A stretch of 64,000 nt of DNA, from the NCBI RefSeq assembly GCF_014639075.1, contig NZ_BMFS01000001.1, positions 124,001-188,000 on the forward strand, given 5' to 3'. The DNA is from Glycocaulis albus (GTDB lineage: Bacteria; Pseudomonadota; Alphaproteobacteria; Caulobacterales; Maricaulaceae). The notes beneath the pieces are model-generated. The model saw nothing but the letters and a program-made list of their open reading frames with translations. It made no database searches and was not told the origin of the DNA. Shown in pieces: positions 2,891 through 30,803 of the stretch (positions are counted from its first letter, which is position 1; the number at the start of each line of letters is the position of its first letter). Position numbers and translations under genes: made by a program.

Positions 2891-5113
2891 ATGATTGATC
2901 GTCTGATGTACGGCGCAGCCGCCGCAGCCCTGGTGCTGGCAGCCTGCGAGCAGCCACCTGCGGCCCCCGCACCGGAAGAAAACGGCACAAGCGAAGCTGA
3001 AATGTCCGCTTCTGACGCGGCGGCTGATGCCGCTGCCATGCCTGCCGCGGAAGGCGGCGCGCTGGCCGCGCTGGACAATAATCCGTTTGCCGAGGAGTGG
3101 ACCGAGAATTTCGGCGCACCGCCGCTGGACCAGATCAACGAAGCACACTTCATGCCGGCGTTTGAGGCCGCGATTGCCGATCATGCGGCCGAGATCGCCG
3201 CCATTGCCGGCAATCCCGAGGAGCCGACCTTCGAAAACACCATGCTGGCCATGGAAATGTCGGGCCGTGGCCTTAGCCGGGTTGCCGCCGTGTTCGGCAA
3301 TCTGACGAGTTCTGCGTCCAATGACGAGCTGCGCGCCATCCAGCGCGAAGTGAGCCCGATGCTGGCCCGCCACAGCGCGTCCATCACGCTGAATGGTGAT
3401 CTGTTTGCCCGCATCGACACGCTCTACCAGAACCGCGCCGATCTCGACCTGTCGGAGCAGCAGGCCCGCCTTCTGGAAGTGACCCATGACCAGTTTGTGC
3501 GCGCCGGTGCGCAGCTGGGCGAGGAGGAGCGCGCGCGCTATGCGGAAATCCGTTCCGAGCTGGCCACGCTCTACACGCAGTTCTCCCAGAACGAGCTGGG
3601 CGACCGCGAGAGCTGGTACATGGAATTGCCGGAGGGCGCGCTGGAGGACCTGCCCGCCTCCATGGTGAGTGCTGCGCGCGCCGCTGCCCGTGCGCGTGAC
3701 ATGGACGGGGCCATCATCACGCTGGACCGTTCCAGCGTGGAGCCCTTCCTTGAAACCTCGCCTGATCGCGAGCTTCGCGAGCGTGCCTGGCGCGGCTTCT
3801 ACAATCGCGGCAATAACGATAACGAGTTCAACAATAACCAGCTGATCCGCGATATTCTGGTGCTGCGCCAGGAACAGGCGCAATTGCTGGGCTTTGAGAG
3901 CTGGGCGCATTACCGCACCGCCGGCACGATGGCCGAAACGCCCGAAGCGGCCATCGACCTGATGGAACAGGTCTGGTGGCCTGCCCGCCAGCGCGCGCTC
4001 GAAGAGCTGGCCGACATTCAGGCCATGATCGATGCCGAAGGCGGCGATTTTGAAGCCGAGGGCTGGGACTGGCGCTACTATACCCAGCGCGTGCGCGAGG
4101 AGCGTTACAGCATCGATCCTGCCGAAGTGGCCCAATATCTTGAGCTCGACCGCATGATCGACGCGATGTTCTACACGGCCGGGCGCCTGTTCAATATCAG
4201 CTTCCACGAGCGCAACGACATTCCGGTCTATCATCCCGATGTTCGCGTCTGGGAAGTCCATAACGCCGAAGGTGATGTGATCGCCCTGTTCTACGGCGAC
4301 TATTTCGCCCGCCAGGGCAAGCGTTCCGGCGCCTGGATGAGCTCGTTCCGGGCCCAGAACGGGATTACCGGCGAAATTCCGCTGATCCTGAACAATTGCA
4401 ACTACAACCGGCCGGCGGAGGGCGAGCCTGCGCTGATCTCCTTCACCGATGCGACGACGCTCTTCCATGAGCTCGGCCACGGCCTGCATGGCATCCTGTC
4501 CAATACCGAGTATCCGTCCTTGGCGGGCACATCGGTGGACCGCGACTTTGTCGAATTCCATGCGCAGATTCTCGAGCACTGGCTGGCCCAGCCGGAAATT
4601 CTCGAGACCTATGCTACCCACTATGAGACCGGCGAACCGATGCCTGTGGAATTGCTGGAGCGGGTGCTGGAAGCCCAGACCTTCAATGCCGGGTTCGAGA
4701 ATGTCGAATTCCTCAATTCCGGCTTTGTGGACATGGCCTTCCACCTGGAAGAAAACCCGTCGGAGATCGACGTGGAAGCGTTCGAAGCTGAAGTTCTCGA
4801 AAGCCGCCAGAATCTGCGCCAGATCCCGATGCGTCACCGCTCAACCCACTTCCTGCACAGCTTCTCCGGTGAGGGCTATGCAGCCGGCTATTACAGCTAT
4901 CTGTGGGCGGGCGTGCTCGACAATGACGGGTTTGCGGTCTTCGAGGAAGCCGGTGACATTTTCGATCCCGAAGCCTCGCAGCGCCTCTATGAGGTGTTCT
5001 CCGGCGGCAATACCCGTCCGGCCATGGAGCTCTATACCGGCTTCCGCGGGCGGGAGCCTTCGGTGGAGCCGCTGCTTCGCAACCGGGGCCTGCTGACCGA
5101 GGTCGAAGGCTAG
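2891..5113 (+). CDS. M3-family metallopeptidase lipoprotein (peptidyl-dipeptidase Dcp-like)
   Basis: A 740-residue exported zinc peptidase of the M3 (thimet/Dcp) family. A lipoprotein signal ends in LAAC (lipidated Cys about residue 19), followed by an Ala/Pro/Glu-rich linker to about residue 60. The helical M3 body then carries the zinc site HELGH at residues 526-530 with the third ligand Glu at 555 (in DFVEFHAQ). The typical C-terminal AGYYSYLWAGVLDNDGF motif lines the active site. Dcp enzymes remove C-terminal dipeptides; the lipid anchor puts this one in the periplasm. The start follows AGGTGAGG, and a terminator ends the unit, so it is monocistronic. Confidence 0.92.
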   Translation: MIDRLMYGAAAAALVLAACEQPPAAPAPEENGTSEAEMSASDAAADAAAMPAAEGGALAALDNNPFAEEWTENFGAPPLDQINEAHFMPAFEAAIADHAAEIAAIAGNPEEPTFENTMLAMEMSGRGLSRVAAVFGNLTSSASNDELRAIQREVSPMLARHSASITLNGDLFARIDTLYQNRADLDLSEQQARLLEVTHDQFVRAGAQLGEEERARYAEIRSELATLYTQFSQNELGDRESWYMELPEGALEDLPASMVSAARAAARARDMDGAIITLDRSSVEPFLETSPDRELRERAWRGFYNRGNNDNEFNNNQLIRDILVLRQEQAQLLGFESWAHYRTAGTMAETPEAAIDLMEQVWWPARQRALEELADIQAMIDAEGGDFEAEGWDWRYYTQRVREERYSIDPAEVAQYLELDRMIDAMFYTAGRLFNISFHERNDIPVYHPDVRVWEVHNAEGDVIALFYGDYFARQGKRSGAWMSSFRAQNGITGEIPLILNNCNYNRPAEGEPALISFTDATTLFHELGHGLHGILSNTEYPSLAGTSVDRDFVEFHAQILEHWLAQPEILETYATHYETGEPMPVELLERVLEAQTFNAGFENVEFLNSGFVDMAFHLEENPSEIDVEAFEAEVLESRQNLRQIPMRHRSTHFLHSFSGEGYAAGYYSYLWAGVLDNDGFAVFEEAGDIFDPEASQRLYEVFSGGNTRPAMELYTGFRGREPSVEPLLRNRGLLTEVEG

Positions 5114-15745: not shown

Positions 15746-17488
15746 CTAGCGGTTTTCCATCATGGCGTCGCGAAGGCCGCGGAACTCATTGCCCTCATAC
15801 CAGTTCGGCCATTCATCACTGTCGGCGATGCGGCGCGCGACGGTGTAGAGCAGGCGTGTATCCTCCTCCAGGCCGGACAGATCCCAGTCCGGGTTATATT
15901 CGTCGGCAGGCTGGTGGTAGCGGTTCATGCGGTAGGCCAGTGCCGCCGTCTCCACATATTCGCGGCCATGCTCGACATGCACCGAGCCGCCACCGGCATA
16001 CAGCATGGGCACGCCGACGCGTGCCAGGCTGACATGGTCGGAGCGGTAGAAATAACCCGCTTCCGGGTTGGGATCGGGTGTGAGATAGCGTCCACCCTGG
16101 GCTTCGGCTTCTTCGCGCAGAATGTCCTCGATCTCCGACGCTCCGTAGCCCACAACCACGACATCTTCAGTGCGGCCAACGGGGAGTTCGCCATCGATAT
16201 TGAGGCCGGCCACGATGGAATTGAGCGGCACGGTCGGGTTGGCTCCGAACCAGGCCGAGCCCAGCAGGCCTGACTCCTCGGCCGTCACGGCAACAAAGAG
16301 GATCGAGCGGCGCGGCTGCTCGCCCAGCGCAAAGGCTTCCATCATTTCCATGATGGCGGCGGTGCCGGTCGCGTTATCGACCGCGCCATTATAGATATTG
16401 TTCTCTGCCGAAAAGTTGAGCCGCACGCCCAGATGATCCCAGTGCGCCATCAGCAGGACATACTCGTCCGGTGCTTCGGCCCCTTCGACCATGCCGATGA
16501 CATTGTTGGACGTCAGGCGGCGCAGGCTGGTGTGCAGTTCGGCGCTCATTGCCGCGCCCTCCAGCGCGACCGGCGTGAAGTCCGGTTCTGCCGCTGCTTC
16601 AGCCAGGGTGTCGAAGTCATGGCCCGTGGCGGCAAACAGCGCGCGCGCGGCATCAAGGTGGATCCAGCCCTGCACCGGCACCAGATCGGATGGCGGCATG
16701 TCGAGCGTGAACTGCGGGCCCGTCCATGAGGCAACCACCGTGTCCCAGCCATAGCTGGCCGGTTCGGTCTGGTGGACGATAATGGCACCGGCCGCGCCCT
16801 GACGGCCCGCCTCCTCATACTTGTATGTCCAGCGCCCGTAATAGGTCATCGCCTCGCCATTGAAGCGGCCGGCATTGGGCTGGGCATAGCCGGGATCATT
16901 GACGAGAATGACCACCGTCTTGCCCTCGACATCAAGCCCCTCATAGTCGTTCCAGCCATATTCCGGCGCCACGACGCCATAGCCGACAAACACCAGCTCG
17001 GTATCGGCGATGGCGACATGCTCTTCCGGGTTCTGGCTCCAGTAGACAACGTCCTGTCCCATCGTCATGCCCATGGGTTCGCCATTGACGGAGATGTCCA
17101 GGCGCGAACGCTCTTCATCCAGCGTTGCCTCGATCAGCGGTACGGGCTGGTACCAGCCCTCGGTACCGGCCGGTTGCACGCCTACACGCGCCAGCTCGTC
17201 GGCAATCCATTGTGCTGCGCGTTCACCGGCTTCAGCGGCCGGCGCGCGGCCCTCGAAACGGTCATCGGCAAGCGTCGCGATGCGGAAATGCAGGTCGTCC
17301 TGTGTGATCTGCGCGCTGGTATCGCCGGCTGGTGGCCAGTCTCCCGCATCGGCGGAGGGCTCGGCAGATGTTTCCGGAGCGCTTTCCCCGGCGGGCGCCC
17401 CGGCCGGTGCGGCAGGCTCATCACTGACGGGTTCACTGCAAGCTGCCAGCAGCGCGGCGGCCGCTGTCAGGGTCCACAAACGTAACAT
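15746..17488 (-). CDS. M28-family zinc metallopeptidase, lipoprotein
   Basis: A 580-residue exported M28 aminopeptidase-type protein. The lipoprotein signal ends LLAAC (Cys about residue 18) and is followed by a Pro/Ala/Glu-rich linker. A PA-type inserted region (about 150-310) precedes the M28 core. Zinc-site motifs are in order: LMAHWDHLG (His, Asp), GAVDNATGTA (bridging Asp) and VTAEESGLLGS (Glu-Glu), then the late AGGGSVHVEHG His. It should release N-terminal residues from peptides in the periplasm. The start at 17488 follows GGGAGGG. The bases around the ATG (GTTATAATGTTAC) loosely resemble a Zur half-site pair. Confidence 0.88.
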   Translation of the reverse strand: MLRLWTLTAAAALLAACSEPVSDEPAAPAGAPAGESAPETSAEPSADAGDWPPAGDTSAQITQDDLHFRIATLADDRFEGRAPAAEAGERAAQWIADELARVGVQPAGTEGWYQPVPLIEATLDEERSRLDISVNGEPMGMTMGQDVVYWSQNPEEHVAIADTELVFVGYGVVAPEYGWNDYEGLDVEGKTVVILVNDPGYAQPNAGRFNGEAMTYYGRWTYKYEEAGRQGAAGAIIVHQTEPASYGWDTVVASWTGPQFTLDMPPSDLVPVQGWIHLDAARALFAATGHDFDTLAEAAAEPDFTPVALEGAAMSAELHTSLRRLTSNNVIGMVEGAEAPDEYVLLMAHWDHLGVRLNFSAENNIYNGAVDNATGTAAIMEMMEAFALGEQPRRSILFVAVTAEESGLLGSAWFGANPTVPLNSIVAGLNIDGELPVGRTEDVVVVGYGASEIEDILREEAEAQGGRYLTPDPNPEAGYFYRSDHVSLARVGVPMLYAGGGSVHVEHGREYVETAALAYRMNRYHQPADEYNPDWDLSGLEEDTRLLYTVARRIADSDEWPNWYEGNEFRGLRDAMMENR

Positions 17489-17637
17489 TATAACGCCCTC
17501 CCAAGGGTTTAGCGGATTTTTGGCCAGCATGCCCTGTCTGGCGTAAAGGTCCAAGCCTGCATTGCCGGTACTCGACAGGACGGGCTTGAACCGTTCAAGG
17601 TGCGCGGCCCGGCAACCACCAGTCCTGAGAGCGCCCG

Positions 17638-27677: not shown

Positions 27678-27798
27678 GGCTGGCTGCAAACGCCTCTTAG
27701 AAACAAAAGCAAACAAAATCAGGGGCTTGGGCTTTCGTCTTGGCGCTCCATCCTGTAGTCTGTGCGCAAATCAGGCAAACCGGCAGGAGGCGAGGGCC

Positions 27799-28281
27799 AT
27801 GAAAGGCGATAGCGGCGTTATCGAGCATCTCAACAAGGCGCTCAAACTGGAGCTGACCACGGTCAACCAGTATTTCCTGCATGCCCGCATGTTCAAGAAC
27901 TGGGGCTTCAACAAGATCGCCAAGATCGAGTACGAGGAATCCATCGACGAGATGAAGCATGCCGACATGCTCATTGACCGCATCCTCTTCCTCGAAGGCC
28001 TGCCTAATGTGCAGGATCTGGGCAAGGTGATGATCGGCGAGACGCTCAAAGAATGCCTGGAGCTTGATCTGAAGGCCGAACACAAGGCCCACCCGATCTA
28101 CAAGGACGCCATCGCCCATTGCGAGGAAGTGCGCGATTACGGCTCACGCGACCTTCTGGAAGTGATCCTGAAATCCGAAGAAGAGCATATCGATTTTCTC
28201 GAAACCCAGCTCGAAATCATCGGCCGCATCGGCGAGGAGCGCTATATGCAGTCCATGCTGGGCGAGCAGGAGGCGGGGTAA
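27799..28281 (+). CDS. bfr: Bacterioferritin
   Basis: A 160-residue 24-mer-forming iron-storage protein. Ferroxidase ligands are E18 (LKLELTTVNQYF), E51 and H54 (DEMKHADM), and the later Glu in ELDLKAEH and EEEHIDFLE; the haem-axial methionine is M52. GCAGGAGGCGAGG precedes the ATG at 27799, which fixes the start. The complete ferroxidase set indicates an active iron-oxidising subunit. It pairs functionally with bfd just upstream. Confidence 0.96.
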   Translation: MKGDSGVIEHLNKALKLELTTVNQYFLHARMFKNWGFNKIAKIEYEESIDEMKHADMLIDRILFLEGLPNVQDLGKVMIGETLKECLELDLKAEHKAHPIYKDAIAHCEEVRDYGSRDLLEVILKSEEEHIDFLETQLEIIGRIGEERYMQSMLGEQEAG

Positions 28282-28510: not shown

Positions 28511-28525
28511 CGTTACAGAATAACA
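28511..28525. promoter_or_regulatory. Zur-like box upstream of the ZIP transporter gene
   Basis: GTTACAGAATAAC at 28512-28524 matches 10 of 12 defined positions of the Zur core GTTATA-N-TATAAC. It lies about 50 bases before the start of the zinc-transporter gene, a normal repressor position. The match was made by eye. Confidence 0.55.
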
Positions 28526-28573
28526 TTACGGCAGCGCGCCCACCGGCGCTGATCCTGCCGGTCTGGAGTTCTC

Positions 28574-29458
28574 TTGGATTCGGTGGCGCTCACGCTCGTT
28601 TTTGCCCTGCTGGCCGCCGGTGTGGTGCTGCTCACGCTCGCCGGCATGCGTTTTGCCGCGCGCTATACGCGTGCCCATTCGCCCCTGCTTGCCGCGTTCT
28701 CCGCCGGCCTCTTGCTGACCATCGCTATCCTGCATCTGATCCCGGAGTCGCTCGCCGGGTCGGATATCGCGCTGTGGATGGTCGCGGCGGGTCTGGGGCT
28801 CGGCATCGTGTTGCGCAGCCTGTCGGCACGAATCGCGCCTGACCGGGTAAAGGCCGCCGCGATGGCGCCCGTATTTGCGATTGCCCTGCACGCCAGCTTT
28901 GACGGGCTGACCTACACGATTGCCTTCGCTTCGGACTCCTTTTCCGGCCTCGCTGCGGGGGCGGGCCTGCTCCTGCACAAGCCCGCCGATGCTGCCGTGT
29001 GCTTCATCCTGTTGCAGCGCGCAGGTGTCAGCGATGGCCGCGCCGCATTCTGGTCCTTTGTGGCTGCGGGCGCTTCCACCCTGGTGTTTGCAGGCATTAC
29101 CGCACCGTTTGCCGGCGCGTTGTCGCCTGCGCTGGTAGCGGGTCTGCTGGGGCTGGCCGCTGGCGTGCTGATCCATGTCTCGGCTGCGCATCTTCTGGTC
29201 CATGCGCGCACGGGCGGGCTTCGCCGCGCCGCGCCGATGGTGGTGCTGGGGATTGTCGCGGCAACTGGCCTGACGGCGGCGCACAGGGCCGGACACGACC
29301 ATCACCACCACGCCCATGACCATGATCATGCGCATGACGATGCGCTGGTAATTTCTGCCGCGCCGCATTTCGGCCCTGTCGGCGGTCCAGCCTCATCCCG
29401 GAACGCTTCAGGCCCTGCCAGCGTTCACCGTGTGAGCCAATCAGGAGAGCAGCCATGA
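28574..29458 (+). CDS. ZIP-family metal permease
   Basis: A 294-residue polytopic protein with the ZIP transport-site residues: HLIPES (54-59), HASFDG (106-111, equivalent to the ZIP HNxxDG in span 4) and HKPAD (135-139, span 5). The C-terminus carries a His/Asp-rich tail (HDHHHHAHDHDHAHDD), a likely cytoplasmic or periplasmic zinc trap. ZIP proteins import Zn2+ or related divalent metals. The start is a TTG at 28574 behind GGAG; a GTG three codons later is possible. It overlaps the next gene by 4 bases (ATGA) and has a Zur-like box upstream. Confidence 0.85.
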   Translation: MDSVALTLVFALLAAGVVLLTLAGMRFAARYTRAHSPLLAAFSAGLLLTIAILHLIPESLAGSDIALWMVAAGLGLGIVLRSLSARIAPDRVKAAAMAPVFAIALHASFDGLTYTIAFASDSFSGLAAGAGLLLHKPADAAVCFILLQRAGVSDGRAAFWSFVAAGASTLVFAGITAPFAGALSPALVAGLLGLAAGVLIHVSAAHLLVHARTGGLRRAAPMVVLGIVAATGLTAAHRAGHDHHHHAHDHDHAHDDALVISAAPHFGPVGGPASSRNASGPASVHRVSQSGEQP

Positions 29459-30213
29459 AACGCTTCATCCTTGCCTCGCTTCTGGCCGGAACGGCCCTTG
29501 CCCCCGCCTTCGCGCAGGAACACGAGCACCGCCACGCCGGAACCCATGTGCACGGGCTTGCCGAGCTGGCTGTTGCGATGAACCCGGACGGCACGCTGGT
29601 CGCGGAACTGGAAAGCCCGCTCTACAATCTCGCCGGATTTGAACGCGCACCGCGTGATGAGAGTGAGTATGCGCTGGTGGCGGCGGCTATAGCCGCGCTG
29701 GAGAGCGATGCCCGCCCTGCCTTCAACGCAGAGGCCGGCTGCGCACCGGGTGAAACGCAGCTCGAAGGCTTCCCGCCCGCGGGAGCCGAGGCCCCCGGTC
29801 ACAACCATGATCACGAGCATATGGAGCATGATGGCGGGGAGGCGCATGACCACGCCCACGATCATGATCACGATCATCACGCGGATGATCATGACGAAGT
29901 GTCCGATGCAGCCGCGCACATGCACGATCATTACGGCGATCACAGCGAAGCCGAAACGCCGCCCCGGGACCACGCCCATGACCATGAACATGCGCAGGGT
30001 CACAGCGAGGATGATGGCGAGCCGCGCTATTCTGACGGCTTTGTGACCTGGACATTTGCCTGCACATCGCCAGATCGGCTGACCCGTATTGATGCGAGCG
30101 GCCTGTTCGACGGCTTTGAGCGTCTGGAGCGCATAAACATTCAGTTTTTCGATGGCGTTCGCAGTGCGTCGGACACGCTCACGCCAAGTTCCGCGGCGCT
30201 ATCCATCCGCTAA
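29455..30213 (+). CDS. ZrgA/DUF2796-family His-rich periplasmic zinc-binding protein
   Basis: A 252-residue secreted protein. A signal peptide ends about residue 20 (TALAPAFA), then EHEHRHAGTHVHGLAELAVAM opens the DUF2796 domain. A central His/Asp-rich block (about residues 115-190) with many HDH, HEH and HAHDHDHDHH repeats offers multiple Zn2+ sites. The C-terminal domain TWTFACTSPDRLTRIDASGLFDGFERLERINIQF is the conserved part of ZrgA. Family members are Zur-regulated periplasmic zinc collectors. It overlaps the ZIP gene start-to-stop, so zinc capture and import appear coupled. Confidence 0.88.
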   Translation: MKRFILASLLAGTALAPAFAQEHEHRHAGTHVHGLAELAVAMNPDGTLVAELESPLYNLAGFERAPRDESEYALVAAAIAALESDARPAFNAEAGCAPGETQLEGFPPAGAEAPGHNHDHEHMEHDGGEAHDHAHDHDHDHHADDHDEVSDAAAHMHDHYGDHSEAETPPRDHAHDHEHAQGHSEDDGEPRYSDGFVTWTFACTSPDRLTRIDASGLFDGFERLERINIQFFDGVRSASDTLTPSSAALSIR

Positions 30214-30215
30214 AG

Positions 30216-30232
30216 ACGTTATATTGTAACGT
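30216..30232. promoter_or_regulatory. Zur-like box upstream of the DUF3299 gene
   Basis: ACGTTATATTGTAACGT has perfect 6-base outer arms (ACGTTA/TAACGT). Its core GTTATATTGTAAC matches 11 of 12 defined positions of GTTATA-N-TATAAC. It sits 2 bases after the ZrgA-like stop and 47 bases before the DUF3299 start. Confidence 0.65.
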
Positions 30233-30278
30233 GTAAGCCGTGCTTGCCGCGAGCCGGGTGTGTGCACACATTCGGGCC

Positions 30279-30803
30279 ATGGTGTTACGCACGCTTCTGA
30301 TCAGCCTGTTTCTGACCGCCAGCCTTTTGGCGGGCGCCGCCCGTGCCGGTGACGGCGACAATGTCCGCTCCATCGTGTGGGCCGACCTGTTGCCCGAGGG
30401 CGAAAGCGAGCGCCTGTCGCGCCTGCAACAGATGCAGGCGGTCGAGCTGGGCTTTGATCATTTTGGAACCGAGCAGTTCCCGCAGATCATGAGCTTTGCT
30501 GCTGTGGAGGAGCTGGATGGACAGCGTGTGCGTCTGGGCGGATATATCCTGCCGTTTGACTATTTCTCCGGCGGCCGGGTGACCCGGTTCCTGCTGGTGC
30601 CTTATGTGGGTGCGTGCATTCATGTGCCGCCGCCCCCGCCCAACCAGCTTGTCTATGTGGAAACCTCCGAGCCGGTGGCCGTCGAGGGGCTGTGGGATCC
30701 GGTCTACGCCGAAGGCGTGCTGCGCATACAGCGCCAGGATACCGACCTTGCCAGCGTGGCCTATACGCTGGAGCTGGATTCAATCACGCCTTACCGGCCG
30801 TGA
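30279..30803 (+). CDS. DUF3299-family exported protein of zinc-uptake loci
   Basis: A 174-residue protein with a signal peptide (VLRTLLISLFLTASLLAGAARA). The DUF3299 core follows: IVWADLLPEG near the start, then QRVRLGGYILPFDYF and FLLVPYVGACIHVPPPPPNQLVYV, with the family-invariant Cys-Ile-His motif. DUF3299 genes typically accompany the DUF2796 protein and a MacB-like ABC pair in Zur-controlled operons (PA4063-PA4066 type). Here the ABC genes are missing and a ZIP gene takes their place. The ATG at 30279 is chosen because it begins the signal peptide; a GTG at 30240 is possible. Confidence 0.85.
   Translation: MVLRTLLISLFLTASLLAGAARAGDGDNVRSIVWADLLPEGESERLSRLQQMQAVELGFDHFGTEQFPQIMSFAAVEELDGQRVRLGGYILPFDYFSGGRVTRFLLVPYVGACIHVPPPPPNQLVYVETSEPVAVEGLWDPVYAEGVLRIQRQDTDLASVAYTLELDSITPYRP

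Follow-up and report, generated by a model that had tools for sequence, protein, structure and literature searches.

The partner of ZrgA (DUF2796) is disputed in print. The ATP-binding cassette (ABC) pair encoded with it is presented as an importer in Vibrio (PMC9820375, PMC9817125, in their available text) and as a MacB-type exporter in Pseudomonas aeruginosa, where the available part of PMC11481552 argues from the invariable association of the homologs with ABC genes. The sections of PMC8561739 at hand leave it to future work to decide whether PA4063 has its partner within its own operon or in a different zinc transporter. Here we describe a locus of Glycocaulis albus within a stretch of 64,000 nucleotides (contig NZ_BMFS01000001.1, positions 124,001 to 188,000; hereafter the window), whose lineage keeps the genes for a ZIP permease, ZrgA and a DUF3299 protein behind Zur-like boxes and the ABC pair elsewhere without a box. 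That ZrgA and DUF3299 are here separated from the ABC pair and linked to a ZIP gene appears to be new; no report of a ZIP-ZrgA neighbourhood was found in the open-licence literature searched. The published invariable tie of ZrgA and DUF3299 to ABC genes is contradicted for this order (Caulobacterales), the loci described here being exceptions to it. On balance, we favour the reading that the locus is a Zur-repressed zinc-uptake module made of a ZIP importer and a zinc trap in the periplasm, the ABC pair having been uncoupled from it.

The three genes run in the same direction on the + strand, the ZIP gene at 28574-29458, the ZrgA/DUF2796 gene at 29455-30213 and the DUF3299 gene ending at 30803, and no ABC gene was found in this triad. 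The ZIP frame starts at TTG, a start kept in genomes G058 and G078, and the ATG of zrgA lies inside the ZIP stop codon (ATGA), giving a 4-base overlap. The DUF3299 frame is open over 30240-30803, with the ATG at 30279 as the likelier start, judged by eye from relatives and the signal peptide. All three genes are under purifying selection, with ratios of nonsynonymous to synonymous substitution (dN/dS) of 0.12-0.29 against three relatives and of 0.12-0.24 for ZIP alone. The preliminary description had already placed the ZIP, His-rich ZrgA/DUF2796 and DUF3299 genes together with the 4-base overlap, and two inverted repeats near the Zur core before the first and third genes; frames and profile or fold matches confirm the former, and the repeats are present with the 10/12 and 11/12 matches then given.

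28512..28524 (+): Zur-like box preceding the ZIP gene (GTTACAGAATAAC); differs from the core in 2 letters, position conserved
28574..29458 (+): ZIP-family permease, 294 amino acids, TTG start; sub-threshold Pfam Zip score, ZIP fold in the model
28889..28990 (+): M1/M2-type metal site with H106, D110, H135, K136 and D139, from the 48-row alignment; equivalence of K136 probable
29174..29191 (+): H201 and H206 of ZIP helix 7, from the alignment
29294..29341 (+): His-rich C-terminal tail of ZIP seen in the sequence, probably periplasmic judging from the ZIP fold
29455..30213 (+): ZrgA/DUF2796 His-rich protein, 252 amino acids, putative zinc binder; PF10986 and structure matches
30218..30230 (+): Zur-like box lying after zrgA and before the DUF3299 gene (GTTATATTGTAAC); 1 mismatch to the core
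30240..30803 (+): DUF3299 exported protein of the ZrgE/PA4066 type; PF11736 and PDB 4hsp

Two of the proteins are assigned by curated profiles, ZrgA with 115.6 bits to PF10986 (cut-off 27.4) and the DUF3299 protein with 143.1 bits to PF11736 (cut-off 22); to the NCBIfam model ZrgA the former scores 87.3 bits, under that model's 185. Their nearest solved structures are PA4063 (7ahw, E 8.4e-15) and PA4066 (PDB 4hsp, E 2.5e-29), and ZrgA also matches 8ezw (E 3.1e-7), which we take to be V. cholerae ZrgA. ZrgA has a His-rich loop and an HVHG motif and is a putative zinc binder. The genome has a second DUF3299 gene (L045:8324-8947; G000:C4:8339-8749) beside a gene for a TonB-dependent receptor, with a Peripla_BP_2 protein and an ABC ATPase encoded nearby; this locus is without ZrgA and its 20-kilobase (kb) stretch shows no box of at most two mismatches. 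It was considered as a site of the ABC pair and dropped: an ABC ATPase is nearby (L045:5613-6368, E 3e-68 to the ATPase profile), the permease is not.

The permease scores 22.4 bits against Pfam Zip, under the cut-off of 35.1. Three of five scanned ZIP relatives pass, namely L051 (same gene order), L063 and L176, with 48.6 and 67.7 bits for the first two (39% and 32% identity to the window ZIP) and 43.5 for L176; L129 stays below (24.0 bits), and L119 has no Zip match at all. An AlphaFold model built from 48 aligned ZIPs has a mean predicted local distance difference test score (pLDDT) of 87.1, and eight membrane helices can be read from it, the His-rich C-terminal tail being of low confidence. 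All six Foldseek matches of this model at E <= 0.001 are ZIP entries, and VIA-align fills ranks 1-8 with BbZIP or bacterial Zrt/Irt-like entries at Z 13.9-18.7, the row after them dropping to 8.5. As modelled, the window protein has the ZIP fold, which we regard as stronger evidence of family than the sub-threshold Pfam score. A link to BbZIP from sequence alone was dropped, as nothing in the PDB matched a profile at E <= 0.1 and the chains returned by two phmmer searches were unrelated; the link is thus visible only through comparison of the model.

The metal site was compared in an alignment of 48 ZIPs, 12 of them from the triad or a ZIP-DUF3299 order, 24 linked to ABC genes and 12 others. 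The M1 ligands of helices 4 and 5 appear to be present (H106, D110, H135, D139), and H106, D110 and H135 are kept in 48/48 rows; the matching goes by spacing and in part by BbZIP residue numbers that, other than D208 and E240, we presume to be right. The helix-5 motif, usually HEFPEG in relatives, reads HKPADA in the window ZIP and in L118-L120. Structural alignment puts model residues 1-238 on BbZIP 53-309, the offset growing from 52 at the start to 71 at the end, and together with motif spacing suggests that K136, a natural lysine at the M2 position, falls at or next to BbZIP D208. In helix 7, H201 occurs in 12/12 triad or ZIP-DUF3299 rows and 0/36 other rows, and H206 in 12/12 triad-type rows, 0/24 ABC-linked rows and 11/12 of the others. 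The 12 ZIPs with H201 look like one group of relatives and should thus not be counted as 12 independent events.

The case for Zur-type control begins with the first box (28512-28524, 10/12 core matches), whose 13 bases are those of the C. crescentus znuM box core, and the znuM promoter bound Zur by gel shift according to the available text of PMC4176598. Among 11 related triads, nine have a box (at most two mismatches) in the 100 base pairs (bp) before ZIP, and the remaining 113,177 bp of these loci hold only three boxes, two being the boxes in front of DUF3299 in L118 and L119. The second box (30218-30230, 11/12) is perfect, without a single mismatch, at this position in G058, G078 and L119; at up to two mismatches it was not seen in L120 (Glycocaulis profundi) or in three genomes of the genus labelled g5, and is thus a local feature. 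By count the core is not enriched genome-wide, with 13 sites of at most two mismatches versus 27 for the reversed control; regulon calling from such counts was therefore dropped, and the evidence of the boxes lies in their position and conservation. The second box is the sole one-mismatch site among the 13. The genome encodes Fur and a Zur-like protein (108 bits to NCBIfam Zur, under the cut-off of 167), and the Zur-like gene on contig C8 faces a gene for a ZnuD-like TonB receptor (334 bits to NCBIfam ZnuD, under the cut-off of 950), the gap between the two genes holding a two-mismatch box. Zur-type control of the locus, as proposed earlier, is supported by the boxes conserved in place, to which Zur would be predicted to bind, and by this pairing of the Zur-like gene with the receptor gene across a box.

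Two further Zur-like sites lie in the window. One, at 17482-17494 (GTTATAATGTTAC), overlaps the probable start codon of a gene for a lipoprotein-like M28 peptidase (15746-17488, - strand) and is found at the same place in 6/6 genomes of the genus, one of them with 67% protein identity. The other, a palindrome at 2763-2775 (GTAATAGTATTAC), precedes a gene for an M3 peptidase (2891-5113, + strand) by about 130 bp; a box of at most three mismatches, varying in its letters, stands about 90-130 bp before this gene in 6/6 genus genomes. These two metallopeptidases may belong to the Zur regulon. A ferritin-like gene (27727-28281) precedes the ZIP gene, and a similar gene was seen by eye upstream of ZIP in G058, G078, G123 and Marinicauda.

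The MacB-like pair is absent from the locus and present in the genome. A search with the permease of L063 gave one strong match, on contig C4 (C4:174999-176243, 53% identical, E 5.7e-137), with FtsX and MacB_PCD domains; the ATPase gene adjoins it, trxB lies upstream and a LysR-like gene downstream, and the 19-kb stretch contains a lone core match (at most three mismatches) about 6.9 kb away. The trxB-linked pair also occurs in G058, G078, G034, G123, G133 and G039, with one extra gene between trxB and the ATPase gene in three g5 genomes (L105, L106, L107; L105:4212-5408 encodes a DUF547 protein), and none of these 6/6 further stretches of 12-13 kb (L103-L107, L109) has a box of at most two mismatches. 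All 6/6 sampled genomes with the co-directional triad, G. albus included, have kept the pair. In a tree of 29 permeases, rooted by midpoint only, all seven trxB-linked rows group together (support 100/99), next to rows that are zrgA-linked or unlabelled. The pair has not been lost, a single relocation being the simplest account, and the uncoupling probably happened once, in the ancestor of the Glycocaulis/Oceanicaulis/Marinicauda group.

The linkage of the genes was followed in overlapping samples (judging by length, L118 and G058 are the same contig, for instance), so that the counts are not independent. In 150 genomes of the order, 51 had ZrgA matches, at 56 places; adjacency covered ZIP and permease only, was taken from match-start distance (3.5 kb for ZIP, 4.5 kb for the permease), and split matches were merged by hand. 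ZIP stands within 3.5 kb at 34/56 places. At 27 of these 34 (27/56 overall) an ABC permease is adjacent as well, with ZIP on the strand opposite to both in 27/27, and at the other seven a permease is encoded elsewhere in the genome (7/7). A permease without ZIP adjoins ZrgA at 10/56 places, which makes 37/56 with an adjacent permease. Neither is adjacent at 12/56, nine with a permease elsewhere and three in permease-free genomes; four of the 12 are weak ZrgA matches near or under the cut-off (G048, CobW-like by eye, G023, G092 and G025:C2).

Among the named genomes, patterns from an alignment holding both gene orders found 74 ZIP loci, of which 41 have the divergent arrangement of ZIP and ZrgA-ATPase-permease-DUF3299, a further one with a split ZIP raising this to 42/74. 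Co-directional ZIP-ZrgA-DUF3299 triads without ABC genes, the search for which had been proposed in the preliminary description, make up 11/74 (Glycocaulis, Oceanicaulis, Alkalicaulis and kin). The rest comprise one ZIP-DUF3299 locus (Marinicauda salina), one without ZrgA, one cut by a contig end, 17 with ZIP but without ZrgA or DUF3299, and one without a match. ZrgA-DUF3299 pairs with neither ABC nor ZIP beside them were also seen (L060, L065, L066, L258, L259, L262), a CobW-like gene being noticed by eye near the pair in L060 and L262. The class sample comprised 385 genomes, 31 with ZrgA matches and 29 of these outside the order; 24 of the outside loci were compared, the five left out being all below the cut-off. 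The three exceptions to ABC linkage among the 24 include L256, which is cut by a contig end. In L239 and L256, from one genus, ZIP diverges from ZrgA with a perfect box between them, and in L235 a more distant ZIP lies near ZrgA.

The placing of a ZIP gene beside one for a periplasmic His-rich protein, already proposed in the preliminary description, is thus borne out. ZIP is the only recognised importer in the locus, and the genome yielded neither an ABC-3 (ZnuB) protein nor a second ZIP, which argues for a ZIP importer with a periplasmic zinc trap. ABC-3 (ZnuB) was likewise matched in 0/6 genomes of the genus and 0/7 of g5. PF00950 was matched in 41/79 genomes of the family, none of them in genus g1 or g5, and most matches are weak (E 8e-9 to 9e-4) in frames mostly longer than 320 amino acids, which we read as putative cobalamin/siderophore-type permeases; those in G168, G083 and G156 are stronger. 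In the proposed mechanism, zinc would enter the periplasm, probably by way of the ZnuD-like receptor of the outer membrane, whose gene neighbours zur on contig C8, and would be caught there by ZrgA and the His-rich ZIP tail, raising its concentration at the mouth of ZIP, which would carry it inward without ATP. DUF3299 would act as an envelope helper, and the MacB-like pair, once uncoupled, now stands behind trxB outside the visible Zur regulon.

Several observations weigh against this proposal. Gene linkage is not interaction, and the roles in transport and expression are predictions from sequence. The finding of no ABC-3 (ZnuB) protein in the genome has its limit, since importers of the Caulobacter ZnuGHI type, MntH and Pit were not searched. 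The metal site of ZIP is altered by K136, and the acid at 139 is also lost in 4/12 triad-type rows. In the triads L124 and L137 (2/11) no box was seen at up to two mismatches. Marinicauda G039 has ZIP-DUF3299 in a genome that gave no match to ZrgA, which is therefore dispensable for a ZIP of this kind. Beyond the order, the ABC permease stands beside ZrgA in 21/24 loci and any ZIP is nearby in three only; the uncoupling and most of the ZIP link thus belong to one order. Finally, the available text of PMC9820375 reports that in V. cholerae zrgA provides the binding protein that serves ZrgBC.

Alternatively, ZrgA and DUF3299 could still work in trans with the MacB-like pair, as a split version of the export system proposed for P. 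aeruginosa, with ZIP merely a co-regulated neighbour. The pair is kept in 6/6 sampled triad genomes, the permease adjoins ZrgA at 37/56 places in the order and in 21/24 loci outside it, and PMC11481552, in its available text, gives PA4063 and PA4066 a supporting role in export. Set against this, the trxB-linked pair has no Zur-like box in 6/6 further stretches and none close by in the G. albus genome, so nothing suggests its co-induction with ZrgA, and ZrgA occurs without an adjacent permease at 19/56 places, four being weak matches. We therefore hold a split export system to be doubtful.

The altered metal site could instead indicate that ZIP is no longer a zinc importer, having become a transporter of another divalent metal or a sensor with a rebuilt second metal site (K136, H201). 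K136 replaces the usual acid, H201 is found in 12/12 triad-type rows versus 0/36 others, and in BbZIP the D208K change cuts zinc binding at M1 10-20 fold (PMC11952358, a preprint, in its available text). A change of function is nonetheless unlikely in view of H106, D110 and H135 in 48/48 rows, the Zur-type box before the gene and the dN/dS of 0.12-0.24. Within the zinc-uptake module that we favour, the same residues allow a more specific hypothesis, which we advance tentatively. ZrgA would be the dedicated binding-protein partner of the ZIP carrier, making a binding-protein-fed secondary zinc importer in which K136 is a permanent stand-in for the second metal that favours release and the His-rich trap compensates for the lower affinity; the MacB pair would in that case provide export as an optional arm of the same zinc-starvation response, gone from the cluster in this clade.

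That ZIP was recruited to replace the ABC pair as importer, as the preliminary description supposed from the lack of ABC genes in the triad, is very improbable and was rejected, since the pair survives on contig C4, ZIP and the ABC permease both adjoin ZrgA at 27/56 places, the whole ABC operon stands beside ZIP in 42/74 named loci, Hyphomonas and Henriciella included, and the pair is argued to be an exporter (PMC11481552, available text). The claimed absence of ABC genes holds for the locus and fails for the genome, where the pair lies behind trxB. That description named an ABC pair close to these genes in relatives as evidence that would speak against it; this was looked for and found.

Compared with the described systems, the locus shares with PA4063-PA4066 of P. 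aeruginosa (PMC11481552, PMC8561739, both in their available text) the ZrgA-type and DUF3299-type proteins under a Zur box, whereas there the MacB-like pair lies between them and no ZIP is present, and here ZIP leads the cluster and the pair is elsewhere. With zrgABCDE of Vibrio (PMC9817125, PMC9820375) it has in common zrgA (DUF2796), zrgE (DUF3299) and Zur control; the available text of these reports has no ZIP among the five genes, and describes the ABC pair zrgBC of the operon as an importer. The window locus thus lacks the MacB-like ATPase and permease that characterize both operons, and its relatives are natural strains in which the importer-partner and exporter models predict different results of knock-outs. 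The divergent loci of Hyphomonas and Henriciella share ZIP, ZrgA and DUF3299 and, in part of them, a Zur-like box in the shared promoter, but they have the ABC pair, carry ZIP on the other strand, read mostly HEFPEG in helix 5 and lack H201. With the ZIP importers BbZIP and ZupT, the window ZIP shares the fold and the His-x3-acid pairs of helices 4 and 5, and it differs from them in the lysine at the M2 position, His201 in helix 7, the His-rich tail and the ZrgA neighbourhood, which would make it a natural counterpart of the engineered D208K ZIP.

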